From positions 1 to 38,601 of the forward strand of contig CAMRTM010000009.1 of assembly GCA_947053645.1 (NCBI GenBank): 38,601 nt of DNA. The letters run 5' to 3'. Shown here piece after piece: positions 18,202 to 38,089 of this stretch. The notes under the pieces were generated by a model. It was not told the DNA's origin and ran no database searches. It saw only the letters and a list, made by a program, of their open reading frames with translations. The translations under genes were made by a program, and so were the position numbers. Position 1 is the first letter of the stretch; the number at the start of each line of letters is the position of its first letter. The stretch is from an uncultured Bacillota bacterium (GTDB taxonomy: Bacteria; Bacillota; Clostridia; Christensenellales; UBA1242).

Positions 18202-20463
18202 TTATTCAGCATCAGTTTTTGTCCAAACTGCATAAAGAGTTGTAACATCGGTGCTTACAGGTAACTTAGCATTATCTGCATAGACAACCTCTCCATTCTC
18301 AGTTGTTGCCCAGCCTGCAAAGGTATATCCCTCAGCATTAAAACCAAGGGTTTCAATCTTTGTTATTTCAACTCCCCAATTGTAATAAACTGTTAGATTT
18401 GCTTTAGCCTCTTCTTTATCAATCTCTGTTGGATAGTGTGAAACCAGTTGTACTACCTTTGTGAATACTGCATACATTTCAGTATCTGTTCCAAGTCCAT
18501 TGTAATAGCTATTCCATAAATTTGTTTGTCCCTTTATTGCCCAACCTGCAAATACACAACCTAAAGGAACTTCGCCAGTATATTCAGGGGCAATATCAAC
18601 AAGCCATTGTCCATTTTTGGCTGTTACAGTAGTATCTACAACATAGGTATCACCATTGTAATGTCCAAATGAAACATTTCTTGTGATTTCTTGTCCATTT
18701 GCATATTGTAAAAGTCCAGTTCTACTTAAATCATACTTATCAACTTCTGAAGCATTAATACCAAATATTGATTGTATCCATGCACGATATTCTGTTTCTC
18801 TTCCAAGTGCTTTTAAGATGTTGCCTTTATTCATAACTAATGTGTTATTTCCTTCACTATCAAGTAAGGTTCCAGCAGCATATCTGCCTGAAAGGTTTGC
18901 AGTACTTAAAACATTGTAATTATCTTTGCCAATTACAAACTGAATTGGTACAGAAACTTCATAACCAGTGTAAGTAGAAGAATTAAGTCCACAGATTGCA
19001 AAATCCAGTCCAAGGTATGCAAAGTTTTCAGCGGCAACACCACCAGGCATAACACCGATTCTCTTTCCTAATGAATCCTCGAAATGGAAATGATTAACAA
19101 GTGCATACATTTCATTTTTATAAGTTATACCATCTACAAGATAATGTCCATCTTTGAATGTAGATAAACTATCAACGAGTTCAGATGGATGTCCTTTGTA
19201 CAACAAGTCATATTCGTCTCCATAAAGAGTGAGTACATATGAGAAGGCATATCTATATTCTTGGAACATATTGAATGCTTTAACCCACTTATTATTTCCT
19301 TCACTTGGTAAAAGAGCCTTGAAAGCAGTCCAATCTTCTTGAGTATATTCGTCAACAAGTAAGGTGGCGAGGGCATCACCCTCTGCTTTAAGTTCTTTAA
19401 GTCTATCATAGTCAACCATATACTCAGAATAATTATCAAGAGTAATGTCAGGTACTAAAGCATAATCGTAATTGTATGCACGAGATCCGATATAAACAAG
19501 TTTCTTTGATGGAACTTCATTGCCATTACCATCCACTGTTCTTTGTAATAAATTAATGGTTGTATCTTTATCAGCACCAAATACTAATGAAAGATATTTA
19601 TTTCTTTGTTCTTCATTAAATTTAGACATTGTATTACTTATTGAAGAAGATTTTATGTTCACTGTATATTCTTTATCTGTTCCATTGTAAATACTTGTAA
19701 GTCTTGAAGTTTGAACATAATTGTTTAAAGTATCTAATAATTTACTTTTATCTTGCACACGATATTCAGCGTTATCAAAGGTTGCAAGTGCATAGACTGC
19801 ATAAAGGTCATTAATCATCAATTCACTTCCAGCAACTGAATTGTTTGCATCTTCCTTCATTGCTTCTATTTTAGCAGTAGCATCTGTTAAAAGAGAGTCA
19901 AATGCATCATAAGTTTCATCAATATCCCCTCCAACAGTTTTGCCTGTTACAAAATATTGAGTAAAGTTGGTATATGTTGAAGCGCCATCCTCTATCATAA
20001 CAACTTTATAATCTTTATCGCTGAGTCCTGCGTAAATACCAATTGCAAAACCAGTATAAGCATCAAAGTCAGTTACATAAATATTAAAAGTTGCCTTACT
20101 ATCCGATGATTTCAGTCTTTTTACAAGACTAATCATATTTTGAATTGCTTCCAAAGAAGTAGCATTGTTTTGGTTACTTGTTTGAAAACCCAAATTATCA
20201 AAGTTTGAAACAGACTCTATCCCAGCATAGGTCTTTCCTCTTTGAATAAATGCATATGTGTTTCCACCATCTAAAATAGAATCCATCGCTGCAAGTGTTG
20301 GTGGAATGCTGGATTGTGCAAAAATGATATTATAATTTTTGCCTTCTTGTTTGCCATCATCTTTTTTAGATAGGATAATAATTCCTATAATCAAGCCAAC
20401 CACTAGGACAATAGCCGCTATCATTGCCCACAGTTTCTTTTTCATGGAACTTTCCGTATTCAT
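18202..20463 (-). CDS. Membrane-anchored GT80 sialyltransferase-like protein with InlB-type repeats
   Basis: 753 residues. One hydrophobic segment (11-31) anchors it; Lys residues flank both sides, so topology is not certain. Residues about 44-560 resemble the GT80 sialyltransferases (Pasteurella PmST1 type). An early SSIPPTLAAMD segment is followed by MIEDGAS with the D/E-D/E-G motif (158-160), FNEEQRNKYLSLVFG (283-296), YKGHP with the HP motif (422-426) and a glycine motif MPGGVAAENF (472-481). Where PmST1 has paired serines in GGVASS this protein has Ala-Glu, although a later SST (495-497) could serve. Residues 615-750 contain two Listeria-Bacteroides (InlB B) repeats with FAGWA and MYAVFTK/LYAVWTK, which are typically extracellular. 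RBS AAGGAGG is seven bases before the ATG. The promoter contains a G9 tract. Donor, acceptor and activity are unproven. Confidence 0.75.
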   Translation of the reverse strand: MNTESSMKKKLWAMIAAIVLVVGLIIGIIILSKKDDGKQEGKNYNIIFAQSSIPPTLAAMDSILDGGNTYAFIQRGKTYAGIESVSNFDNLGFQTSNQNNATSLEAIQNMISLVKRLKSSDSKATFNIYVTDFDAYTGFAIGIYAGLSDKDYKVVMIEDGASTYTNFTQYFVTGKTVGGDIDETYDAFDSLLTDATAKIEAMKEDANNSVAGSELMINDLYAVYALATFDNAEYRVQDKSKLLDTLNNYVQTSRLTSIYNGTDKEYTVNIKSSSISNTMSKFNEEQRNKYLSLVFGADKDTTINLLQRTVDGNGNEVPSKKLVYIGSRAYNYDYALVPDITLDNYSEYMVDYDRLKELKAEGDALATLLVDEYTQEDWTAFKALLPSEGNNKWVKAFNMFQEYRYAFSYVLTLYGDEYDLLYKGHPSELVDSLSTFKDGHYLVDGITYKNEMYALVNHFHFEDSLGKRIGVMPGGVAAENFAYLGLDFAICGLNSSTYTGYEVSVPIQFVIGKDNYNVLSTANLSGRYAAGTLLDSEGNNTLVMNKGNILKALGRETEYRAWIQSIFGINASEVDKYDLSRTGLLQYANGQEITRNVSFGHYNGDTYVVDTTVTAKNGQWLVDIAPEYTGEVPLGCVFAGWAIKGQTNLWNSYYNGLGTDTEMYAVFTKVVQLVSHYPTEIDKEEAKANLTVYYNWGVEITKIETLGFNAEGYTFAGWATTENGEVVYADNAKLPVSTDVTTLYAVWTKTDAE

Positions 20464-20487: not shown

Positions 20488-20518
20488 AGTATAACATAAA
20501 AATCCCCCCCCCAGTCAA
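20488..20518 (-). promoter_or_regulatory. Probable phase-variable promoter with a G9 spacer tract
   Basis: On the minus strand TTGACT (20513-20518) is followed at once by nine G (complement of 20504-20512), then ten bases and an extended -10 TGTTATACT with TATACT at 20488-20493. The spacer is 19 bases with G9, and a loss of two G would give the optimal 17. Poly-G/C runs between -35 and -10 are known phase-variation devices, for example at neisserial porA and opc. Confidence 0.75.
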
Positions 20519-29977: not shown

Positions 29978-30325
29978 CTAAAAACCTAAGGATATAAGTA
30001 GCGCCTTATTTACTTCCCGCATTTTGTCTTCGCCAAGGGTTGTCACCTTTTCACGAAGTCGGCGTTTATCTAAAGTACGAATTTGCTCGAGCAATGCCAC
30101 CGAGTTTTTTGGTAGGTTATATCGCTCTGCCGAAAGTTCTATATGAGTAGGAAGTTTGGCTTTGCCTAATTGGCTGGTTATCGCAGATACAATCACTGTT
30201 GGGGAATACTTATTTCCAACATCATTTTGAATAACAAGTACAGGTCGAACGCCGCCCTGCTCACTTCCAACAACAGGGCTTAAATCAGCATAATAAATTT
30301 CTCCGCGTTTAATCTGATCGACCAT
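29978..30325 (-). CDS. mazF: EndoA/MazF-family mRNA interferase toxin
   Basis: 115 residues, close in pattern to B. subtilis EndoA (NdoA): [29 protein letters not shown] at the start, with the active-site Arg in GGVRP, and a central [14 protein letters not shown]. Cleaves mRNA at specific short sites. RBS AAGG. The start overlaps the end of the upstream gene by 17 bases, as for toxin-antitoxin pairs, but that gene does not look like the usual MazE/EndoAI. Confidence 0.93.
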
Positions 30326-34886: not shown

Positions 34887-35870
34887 ATGAACGAACTTAC
34901 CAAATATGCGGAGATAAAAAGCGTCCTTAAAAAATACAAAATCAAAAGTCTTGAAGAGGCAAGAGAAATTTGTTTGAAAAATAATATAAATGTTTACGAC
35001 ATTGTTAAAGGAATACAGCCTATCTGTTTTGACAACGCTGTGAAAGCATATGAACTTGGTGTGGCTATCGCAATCAATTCAAAGGCAAAAACGGCACAGG
35101 AAGTTGCAGTTAAAATTGGCGAAGGCTTGCAAGCATTCTGCGTGAAAGGGTCTGTTGCTGACGAGCGTCAAATTGGACTTGGACATGGCAGGCTTGCGGC
35201 AATGCTTCTTGACGAGGGCACCAAGAGTTTTGCATTCCTTGCCGGACATGAAAGTTTTGCAGCTGCGGAAGGCGCCATTGGTATTGCTGTCACTGCAAAC
35301 AAGGTACGACGCACCCCACTAAATGTTGTGCTGATTGGACTTGGCAAAGATGCGGCATACATCATTGCAAGAGTAAATGGTTTTACCTATGTGAATACTA
35401 AGTATGACCACTCCACTGGCAAACTTAAGATACTTGATAAAAAGAAGTTTTCTAAAGGCGAGAGAGGCAATATTAAAATCTATGGCTCTTATGATGTACC
35501 AGAAGGTGTGGCAATTATGCAACATGAAAAAGTGGATGTCTCTATTACTGGCAATTCAACTAATCCTGTAAGATTCCAACATCCAGTGGCTGGCATATAC
35601 AAAAAATGGTGCAATGAGAATGGGCGAAAATATTTCTCCGTGGCATCTGGTGGCGGTACTGGGCGTACCCTACACCCTGATAATGTGGCGGCTGGGCCTG
35701 CTAGTTATGGACTTACTGACACTATGGGAAGAATGCACTGCGATGCACAATTTGCTGGTTCTTCCTCAGTGCCTGCACATGTGGAAATGATGGGCTTTAT
35801 TGGAATGGGCAACAACCCTATCGTTGGAGCGACGGTGGCAACAACCGTAGCAGTATGTACAAGAAAATAA
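34887..35870 (+). CDS. GGGtGRT protein
   Basis: 327 residues. The family-naming motif SGGGTGRTLHPDN is visible near residue 255, with the ADERQIGLGHGRLAAMLL and FLAGHESFAAAEGAIG segments. Function is not established; the family is common in anaerobes beside a NifU-like protein, as here. RBS AAGGAGG lies in the end of the preceding gene, so translation is coupled. Confidence 0.9.
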   Translation: MNELTKYAEIKSVLKKYKIKSLEEAREICLKNNINVYDIVKGIQPICFDNAVKAYELGVAIAINSKAKTAQEVAVKIGEGLQAFCVKGSVADERQIGLGHGRLAAMLLDEGTKSFAFLAGHESFAAAEGAIGIAVTANKVRRTPLNVVLIGLGKDAAYIIARVNGFTYVNTKYDHSTGKLKILDKKKFSKGERGNIKIYGSYDVPEGVAIMQHEKVDVSITGNSTNPVRFQHPVAGIYKKWCNENGRKYFSVASGGGTGRTLHPDNVAAGPASYGLTDTMGRMHCDAQFAGSSSVPAHVEMMGFIGMGNNPIVGATVATTVAVCTRK

Positions 35871-35899
35871 AAAATTGCTACTTATCGTAGCAATTTTTT
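35868..35899. terminator. Bidirectional terminator GGGtGRT / MazF-fusion
   Basis: AAAATTGCTAC, TTATC loop, GTAGCAATTTT with a flanking A-run and T-run, between convergent genes. Confidence 0.85.
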
Positions 35900-37331
35900 A
35901 TACACTTTCTGTGATATCGGCAAGGTCATAATAGTTTAATGCTTTTGACCCCTCTCGCATAATGTCATCACAGTTGTTCAAATATTTACCTATAAAACTT
36001 AAAGACTTCTGGAACCCTTTTTCTGCACCATCTTTACCACTTGTACTTCTTGCATTGTTATACTTTTTGCTGTAAGCATCCGCGATTGCTTTTGCATACT
36101 TTTTTGGATAAGTAGCAAATTTCTTTGCTAGAATTTTAACAAGTTCCTCTTGCAGTATAAAATCATTGAGGGTTTTCTTGTCTCCGCAGAAATAATGAGC
36201 ATAGAATGGATAAATAATTATATCAGTGTAAAATACATTGTTATAAGAATCTTTTGCGTTTAGTTTAATAGTGATTCCCTTTGAAAAATCCTCACCTTCA
36301 ATAGTATAATCTTTATCAAATTGCAAGGAAGAGCCGTGCTCTTGCATATTTTTAATCTTTGCCATTACTATCTGCCCAATTTCCGCTTTTGTCAGCGAAT
36401 ATATTTCATTTTGCTCGCTATATTGCTGAGTTATTATCTTTTGTTTTTCCGTTTCATTTGATAAAAAATCGTTTTCAGAAATTTCTGCCCCCACTTTTGC
36501 GTCTAAGACTTCTTGTATGAGCGTTTTTTCAATTCCCATATGTTCTATAAGATATTTCTTAACAATATGCAAATCTTCCTTTTTTAGTTCTCCAAGTTTT
36601 TCAAATAATCTTGATGAAGATAGCGTTTTAATCTGTCCCAAGCATATTTGGCTATCATAAATTAGATTATACTCCTCTTTCTTTAACACCGGCAAACCGT
36701 TCTTGGAAAGTTTACTTGAACAAGGTACGCATATCACTGTTTTGTCGGCTTTATTCTGCATCAAAATTATTACAGGTCGCTCACCTCCAAGTTCATCTGA
36801 AAGAACAGGATTTAGGTCGGCATAATATATCTCGCCTGCTTTAAATGTACGGACTGTCTTATCGGCACTATTTTGAATTGGCATTAAAAAGTTTCCATGT
36901 CTACTTTCTCTTAACGCTGCTTTAAAGTCTGGTGCACCTAAAGCGTCCTCCACCTTAACAAAACCATTCAATAATACACTTTCTTTAAGTTTCTCTCTAA
37001 TGCGTTCAACCTCTGCATCTACTTCCTCTAGTGCCTTTTCATATGTCTGTTTAAACTCTAAATCATTCTCACAAAGCACAGCGATGTATTCTCTTTGCAT
37101 ATCTTTAGCAAAAGGTAGAAGTTCGCCTTGCACTTCCAGTTTAGATTTATAAAAAGTTATAATTGAAAAACTGTTTCTATCTCCATTTGACACCTTAACT
37201 TTTGTACCGTCAAGACTGGCAGCCCTTGCAAAATCTATGGATTTAATCCAAAAACTCCCCCCCCCACGATTTGCAGAAGTGAGAATAATTCTCTCTAAAA
37301 GTTCCCCTCTAATTTTTGAAATATCCATCAT
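35898..37331 (-). CDS. Large protein with a central MazF/PemK RNase domain; G9 tract near its start
   Basis: 477 residues (475 if the second ATG, better spaced from AAGGAG, is used). Residues about 163-266 form a MazF/PemK-like domain: [32 protein letters not shown] with the conserved Arg185, VICVPCSSKL at the site of the second catalytic Ser/Thr, and CLGQIKTLSSSRLFEKLG. The N-terminal 160 residues and C-terminal 210 residues match no family I know; the former includes a charged coiled-coil (about 95-118). Codons 23-25 are GGG GGG GGG, a nine-G run (complement of 37257-37265); a one-base slip would frameshift the protein. No adjacent antitoxin is apparent. Confidence 0.8.
   Translation of the reverse strand: MMDISKIRGELLERIILTSANRGGGSFWIKSIDFARAASLDGTKVKVSNGDRNSFSIITFYKSKLEVQGELLPFAKDMQREYIAVLCENDLEFKQTYEKALEEVDAEVERIREKLKESVLLNGFVKVEDALGAPDFKAALRESRHGNFLMPIQNSADKTVRTFKAGEIYYADLNPVLSDELGGERPVIILMQNKADKTVICVPCSSKLSKNGLPVLKKEEYNLIYDSQICLGQIKTLSSSRLFEKLGELKKEDLHIVKKYLIEHMGIEKTLIQEVLDAKVGAEISENDFLSNETEKQKIITQQYSEQNEIYSLTKAEIGQIVMAKIKNMQEHGSSLQFDKDYTIEGEDFSKGITIKLNAKDSYNNVFYTDIIIYPFYAHYFCGDKKTLNDFILQEELVKILAKKFATYPKKYAKAIADAYSKKYNNARSTSGKDGAEKGFQKSLSFIGKYLNNCDDIMREGSKALNYYDLADITESV
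37257..37265 (-). repeat. Coding G9 homopolymer (candidate phase-variation tract)
   Basis: Nine consecutive G on the minus strand encoding Gly23-Gly25 of the MazF-domain protein. The only other G/C run of this length seen is at 20504-20512, in a promoter. Confidence 0.85.
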
Positions 37332-37429: not shown

Positions 37430-38089
37430 ATGATAAAGATAAGAAGAAGTTGGTACGACCTACTTAAAGAAGAATTTGAAAAGCCATATTTCAAAACTTT
37501 ACAAGATTTTTTGGCGGAGGAGTATTCCTCTCGCACAATTTACCCTAGCGAAGATAACATTTTTAATGCTCTCAATCATGTACCCTTTGAAAATGTCAAG
37601 GTTGTGATAATCGGTCAAGACCCCTATCATGAGCCTAATCAGGCAATGGGCATCTCCTTCTCTGTGCCAGAGGGCGTGGAAATTCCGCCTTCACTAGTAA
37701 ACATTATGAAAGAAATTCATGATGACCTTGGCATTACTTGCCAAAAAAGTGGCGACCTTACCCGATGGGCAAATCAAGGGGTGCTACTTTTAAACACCGT
37801 ACTCACGGTAAGACGCGGGCAAGCAAACTCACACAAAGACAAAGGCTGGGAAAAACTGACTAGTGAAATAATAAAAAAATTAGGAACAAGAAAAGAGCCT
37901 ATTGTATTTCTACTTTGGGGCTCATATGCTCAAAGTTTTGCACCCTACATAGAAAGTCAGCATTTGATTTTGAAAGCACCTCACCCAAGCCCCCTATCGG
38001 CATATCGTGGTTTCTTCGGGTGTAAGCATTTTTCAAAATGTAATGAATTTTTGAAAAGTCATGGAATGGAACCTATAAATTGGGAATAA
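37430..38089 (+). CDS. ung: Uracil-DNA glycosylase (family 1)
   Basis: 219 residues, full length. Removes uracil from DNA. The catalytic motif GQDPYHEPNQAMG has Asp and His in place. The second motif HPSPLSAYRGFFGCKHFSKCN carries the minor-groove Leu loop. The N-terminal WYDLLKEEFEKPYF is the normal start of the family, confirming ATG 37430 although it lacks a ribosome binding site. Confidence 0.97.
   Translation: MIKIRRSWYDLLKEEFEKPYFKTLQDFLAEEYSSRTIYPSEDNIFNALNHVPFENVKVVIIGQDPYHEPNQAMGISFSVPEGVEIPPSLVNIMKEIHDDLGITCQKSGDLTRWANQGVLLLNTVLTVRRGQANSHKDKGWEKLTSEIIKKLGTRKEPIVFLLWGSYAQSFAPYIESQHLILKAPHPSPLSAYRGFFGCKHFSKCNEFLKSHGMEPINWE

Follow-up and report, generated by a model that had tools for sequence, protein, structure and literature searches.

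A probable poly-G phase-variation switch in a stand-alone MazF-type gene of an uncultured Clostridia-related bacterium

Phase variation through poly-G/C simple sequence repeats is known from Campylobacter, Neisseria and Haemophilus; Gardnerella, to which we also compare our data, belongs to a different phylum from the host studied here. Poly-G tracts that switch the reading frame and homopolymers that switch a promoter are both established in published accounts (PMC11868660; PMC3899988), and the systems described in the former resemble the genome examined here (G000) in that a small genome contains numerous G/C tracts, near gene starts where they switch the frame and in promoters where they change the spacing. 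They differ in that our host is an uncultured Clostridia-related bacterium with mutS1 and mutL, one target has a MazF domain, and the length alleles are known between species only. According to the Gardnerella paper (PMC11287997), homopolymers of at least eight bases include a median of 20 G/C tracts per genome, with about 70% upstream of ORFs; one tract read by Sanger sequencing had nine bases in most colonies and ten in a few, and surface proteins are prominent among the tract ORFs, toxin-antitoxin proteins also being mentioned. The common tract length, the upstream bias and the mention of toxin-antitoxin proteins bring Gardnerella close to G000, whereas the section of that paper on homopolymer tracts details no MazF gene and describes no repeated gain of a tract (PMC11287997). 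An initial annotation of this DNA had regarded a frame switch in a toxin-like protein as an undescribed combination. This has to be qualified, as toxin-antitoxin proteins are listed among the Gardnerella homopolymer-tract ORFs (PMC11287997), while our literature search, with most subscription journals outside its scope, found no published study of a phase-variable MazF. The pilus switch of Bifidobacterium breve, as presented in PMC9187656, likewise relies on an intragenic G-tract and on replication slippage in a gut commensal, but concerns pilus genes, and deep sequencing quantified its slippage, in mice as well. The poly(A)/poly(T) tracts at gene 5' ends treated in PMC2831843 (and in Listeria inlA) are also frameshift-prone homopolymers near the start, and are reversible there; they are A/T tracts, mostly shorter, unlike the G/C tracts of nine found here in an AT-rich genome.

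The window, by which we mean the whole analysed stretch of 38,601 nucleotides, is contig 9 of the draft genome G000 (874,327 bases, 19 contigs, completeness 95%). On its minus strand, the ORF list and Pfam place a MazF-domain ORF of 477 aa at 35898..37331, starting with ATG and assembled in the open (ON) frame. A G9 tract (37257..37265, minus strand; C9 on the plus strand) forms codons 23-25, the first base of codon 23 being exactly the first base of the tract in gene sense, and both sequence and ORF confirm the in-frame run of three glycines first read there. In the other two frames, stop codons follow 4 and 7 codons past the tract, so a one-base change in length would give a short peptide, as the initial annotation anticipated with a frameshift ahead of the RNase domain. 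The gene lies between a convergent GGGtGRT-family gene (34887..35870, plus strand; Pfam PF14057, E 1e-175; gap of 27 bp) and a divergent ung (37430..38089, plus strand; gap of 98 bp). An ordinary short MazF of 115 aa (29978..30325, minus strand), which has no tract, is the only match of the 477-aa protein in its own genome.

The tract is contained in an N-terminal alpha/beta domain (37062..37331, minus strand; approximately residues 1-90) that was delimited from AlphaFold2 and alignments, with a block pLDDT of 72-81 over residues 11-90; DSSP of the AlphaFold2 model sets the tract codons between a predicted helix (4-22) and a predicted strand (28-33). The MazF/PemK domain comprises residues 164-263 (36543..36842, minus strand; Pfam PemK_toxin PF02452, E 2.5e-17), and a C-terminal domain (residues 305-477; 35901..36419, minus strand), modelled at a mean pLDDT of 92.2, occurs in alignments of relatives as duplicated copies or separate small ORFs too. 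Similarity to the MazF/PemK toxins of S. aureus and B. subtilis extends over sequence and fold and includes the arginine of GGxRP: R185 and S205 are presumably at the active-site Arg and Thr positions of MazF, which would leave the long protein with serine at the position of the catalytic threonine. Unlike in those toxins, the domain here is one part of larger proteins, approximately 470-740 aa long and with two extra domains, and no antitoxin gene was found adjoining the long MazF gene, which is thus not a classical MazEF pair; of the features of a type II MazEF module, the MazF/PemK RNase domain is recognizable by sequence and the adjacent antitoxin operon is absent. The earlier description as toxin-like is supported in part, by the similarity to MazF and the putative active-site residues, with no antitoxin gene adjoining. 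An antitoxin may be unlinked, or fused within the long protein. PADLOC 2.0.0, queried at E 0.1 with five of the 13 long homologues introduced below, returned no match to a catalogued defence protein; the gene is possibly a defence gene unlisted in that catalogue.

The occurrence of two G9 tracts in one window had been taken to argue against chance, and the genome-wide counts agree. Runs of G or C in the window number 8872 of one base, 1932 of two, 278 of three, 71 of four, 10 of five and 2 of nine, a C9 at 20504-20512 being the sole other run of at least six. Over both strands of G000 there are 15 runs of G6, 1 of G7, 4 of G8, 17 of G9 and none of ten or more, compared with 0.003-0.54 exactly-nine runs expected from Markov models of order 1-5 (fitted to 185,805 bases after removal of the tracts); G6 and G7 are without excess in the same models (13-69 and 0.8-13 expected). 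The survey for runs of eight or more G that the initial annotation had proposed therefore yields 21 G8/G9 runs, far above chance. A chance run, or an artefact of sequencing or assembly, deserves hardly any credence as an explanation of the tract. The genomes that could be identified are draft MAGs, in which heterogeneous or erroneous reads could have been collapsed into a G8 or G9 consensus, the gene is broken by G8 in two relatives, and next-generation platforms can be unreliable at homopolymer tracts, a point made in the Gardnerella paper (PMC11287997). Against an artefact stand the 17 runs of G9 with none longer, the flanks of 12 of the 13 promoter-type tracts, with a perfect TTGACA on one side and a TATAAT-like box on the other, the different SRA run numbers of four tract-bearing relatives, and a frame that is open at G9 in all three alleles of that length.

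Such runs extend beyond this genome. At least one G9 is present in 93 of the 112 genomes of the genus, and the order-wide count is 143 of 200, a raw figure uncorrected for base composition. Some genomes from other families of the order (G195, G180 and G091 among them) contain more than 100 G9 words, which may reflect either phasomes or base composition.

A long MazF form was recovered in 13 of the 112 genus genomes with a profile of seven rows and, at E 1e-25, in 3 of 297 order genomes, all three within the same genus. GGGtGRT and ung lie near the gene in all 13. Surveying these homologues for poly-G, as the initial annotation had advised, revealed a G8 or G9 tract within the N-terminal domain of five, at three positions that all precede the MazF domain: codons 23-25 in G000 and the same place in G137, codons 53-55 in G002 and the same place in G054, and approximately codons 59-62 in G136. 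All four of the nearest homologues of the window gene have a tract, and the eight more distant ones have none, with no G/C run of at least five inside the gene. The lack of a tract in close homologues, which the initial annotation had named as counting against its reading, is thus not what the survey shows. At the same ung-linked site, L113:3974-5947, L114:2750-4723 and L112:3797-5515 encode 657-aa and 572-aa proteins with a weak partial match to the long-MazF profile and no G/C run of at least seven, and the site may hold variable cargo. A scan of viral_contigs with the tract flanks gave no match.

Mapped on the model of the window protein, the three tract positions fall between different secondary-structure elements. 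A location between predicted elements would suit a Gly-Gly-Gly loop that the protein needs, with the G homopolymer incidental and no switching, but this account seems very unlikely when eight homologues do without the tract and the others have it at three different positions, and when the promoter tracts discussed below are non-coding. Codon usage points the same way: among ORFs of at least 180 aa in 186 kb, GGG makes up 12.9% of glycine codons, and 18 of the 22 Gly-Gly-Gly motifs do not use GGG-GGG; these stretches were picked around tracts, and tract motifs are therefore over-represented among them. The remaining four motifs are G8/G9 tracts, all inside the first 40 codons.

The length of the tract and the state of the frame vary together. 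All three G9 alleles (G000, G002 and G136) are open, and both G8 alleles (G137 and G054) are frame-broken at the tract, such that ON and OFF alleles of different length are coherent with the frame in a comparison between species, each represented by one genome. No variation in length within a species was observed, separate MAG records of the four tract-bearing relatives being identical to the genomes used here over the stretches compared. Past the tract, both broken alleles have long open frames (455 and 662 codons), and the short part ahead of the tract is open in both as well. Judged from sequence, the post-tract frames look to be under constraint (pN 0.175 and pS 0.838 for the G000/G137 pair; dN/dS 0.187 for G002/G054), though a pN far below pS mostly mirrors the long history of the two lineages. 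The long MazF gene also evolves faster than its neighbours, with a pN of 0.175 compared to 0.062-0.063 for GGGtGRT and ung.

The five tract alleles occupy one side of a branch with support of 100/99 in the tree of the gene (10 of 13 rows), and the same five-genome split is recovered with support of 100/100 from the neighbour genes (13 of 13 rows). Three positions within one clade imply at least three gains of a tract, if the tract does not move. The five genomes also contain 16-34 G9 words each, as opposed to 1-8 in the other eight (longer runs being counted repeatedly), a difference that amounts to a single contrast rather than five because the five form one clade. Decay of the long MazF gene, with the tract merely a frameshift-prone site and the broken alleles pseudogenes, could be read from the two of five tract alleles that are out of frame, the failure to find the long form in 99 of the 112 genus genomes, and the faster evolution relative to the neighbours. 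We regard it as quite improbable, given frames that are open before and after the tract in both broken alleles, the low pN relative to pS within the limit stated above, and the repeated origin of the tract within one clade.

The 21 G8/G9 tracts of G000 were sorted, by our own reading, into 13 of promoter type and 8 coding tracts, several of the former also being covered by mechanical ORFs that open ahead of the likely start, and the L069 tract falling just in front of the position where its ORF is listed to start. Of these 13, twelve combine a 6/6 match to TTGACA and a 4-6/6 match to TATAAT with poly-C8/9 in the spacer (contigs 1-5, 7, 15 and 18; L062-L064, L066, L068, L070, L072, L073, L075 and L076), the spacers measuring 15 (6), 16 (3), 17 (1) and 19 (2) bases. 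The second G9 of the window (20504..20512, minus strand) is flanked by a -35 box TTGACT at 20513-20518 and a -10 box TATACT at 20488-20493 with a spacer of 19, an arrangement (TTGACT-G9-N10-TATACT) that was read by eye, the scan having preferred another box pair. Downstream of it, a 753-aa protein (18202..20463, minus strand) has a weak List_Bact_rpt match below the Pfam cut-off. A homopolymer between the -10 and -35 boxes is also the element that tunes transcription in the porA-type switch as described in PMC3899988, from which our genome differs in having 13 such promoters, 12 of them with poly-C.

Across the genus, the pattern TTGACA-N1..4-C8-N3..10-TATAAT occurs at 97 places in 42 of the 112 genomes, and the reversed-pattern control in none of the 112. 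Among the genomes with a tract in the long MazF gene, this strict pattern is found at 9 places in G000, 10 in G136, 7 in G137, 1 in G054 and 0 in G002. The C-run measures 8 bases at 17 of the 97 places, 9 at 75 and 10 at 5, and the spacers are 13-14 (12), 15-16 (59), 17 (7), 18 (2) and 19-20 (17) bases long. Tract-free perfect box pairs, collected over 346 kb of the own and related genomes, have a spacer of 17 in 18 of 27 cases; since they peak at 17 and the tract spacers are rarely 17, the tract promoters are mostly 1-3 bases off the usual spacing. It could be argued that the poly-C elements, which are 13 of the 21 tracts, form a fixed box read by a regulator and not a length switch, leaving the coding tracts in need of another cause, and the similar flanks, among which TTGACAAAT-C9-GAG-TATAAT recurs, together with the prevalence of exactly C9, would agree with that. 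Such a fixed regulon box is nevertheless unlikely: C8, C9 and C10 are all found in similar boxes, the scarcity of 17-base spacers is as expected if length tunes promoter strength, and the modal length of the coding tracts is identical.

Proteins near tracts in G000 include List_Bact_rpt and Big_3 proteins, a putative adhesive domain, and a DUF5722 protein whose start resembles that of a lipoprotein; of 20 that were scanned, 8 remained without a match at E <=0.01 and several others had weak matches only. At least two of the eight coding tracts are out of frame as assembled (L067 and L074:4977). At L074:3875-5475 (contig 14), a G8 divides the gene of an AMP-binding enzyme into two overlapping frames, apparently leaving it in the OFF state. 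A UvrD-like helicase directly follows a G9 at L069:5022-7127, with weak GajB-like PADLOC matches, and could be a defence gene subject to phase variation. A phage baseplate Gp10_C-like protein at L065:4895-5338 has an in-frame G8 at codon 41 and is possibly a phase-variable prophage tail protein.

The homopolymer in the long MazF gene is longer than chance allows and is placed where its length would change expression, which are the marks of a phase-variable locus. Sequence comparison makes it probable that the G9 acts as a contingency switch, by phase variation, for a three-domain MazF-type protein that is encoded in the chromosome and stands alone. The on/off reading first put forward for the tract thereby gains support from the homologues and the genome, from which we infer the switching itself. 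Strand slippage would alter the length of the G9 in a fraction of cells and so turn the long protein on or off. The ON protein would be an endoribonuclease whose activity has a cost and is of use on some occasions only; most plausibly it would arrest growth or cleave RNA in response to phage or stress, or else switch mRNA levels, and a mixed ON/OFF population would hedge. G000 encodes full-length MutS1 and MutL, and slippage may therefore be slower than in species lacking mismatch repair.

Switching by phase-variable poly-G is familiar in itself; the target and the lineage are what is unusual here. Novelty, to our knowledge, lies in the protein that is targeted, in a single gene having gained tracts at three positions, and in the genus-wide set of poly-C promoters. 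A more far-reaching proposal, which we advance tentatively, is that a multi-locus poly-G/C phasome operates in a genus that has mismatch repair genes and includes a stand-alone RNase among its targets, keeping part of the population in an active RNA-cleaving state. Reinvented through repeated tract gain in one gene, such a system might parallel the methyltransferase phasevarion at the RNA level, or amount to an abortive defence with bet-hedging. With G9 in 93 and poly-C promoter elements in 42 of its 112 genomes, the genus offers a test case for such switches outside the usual model pathogens. The repeated gain of a tract in one gene, as read from the alleles, argues for selection on the capacity to turn an RNase-like protein off, and such selection would set the long MazF apart from an ordinary toxin-antitoxin module.
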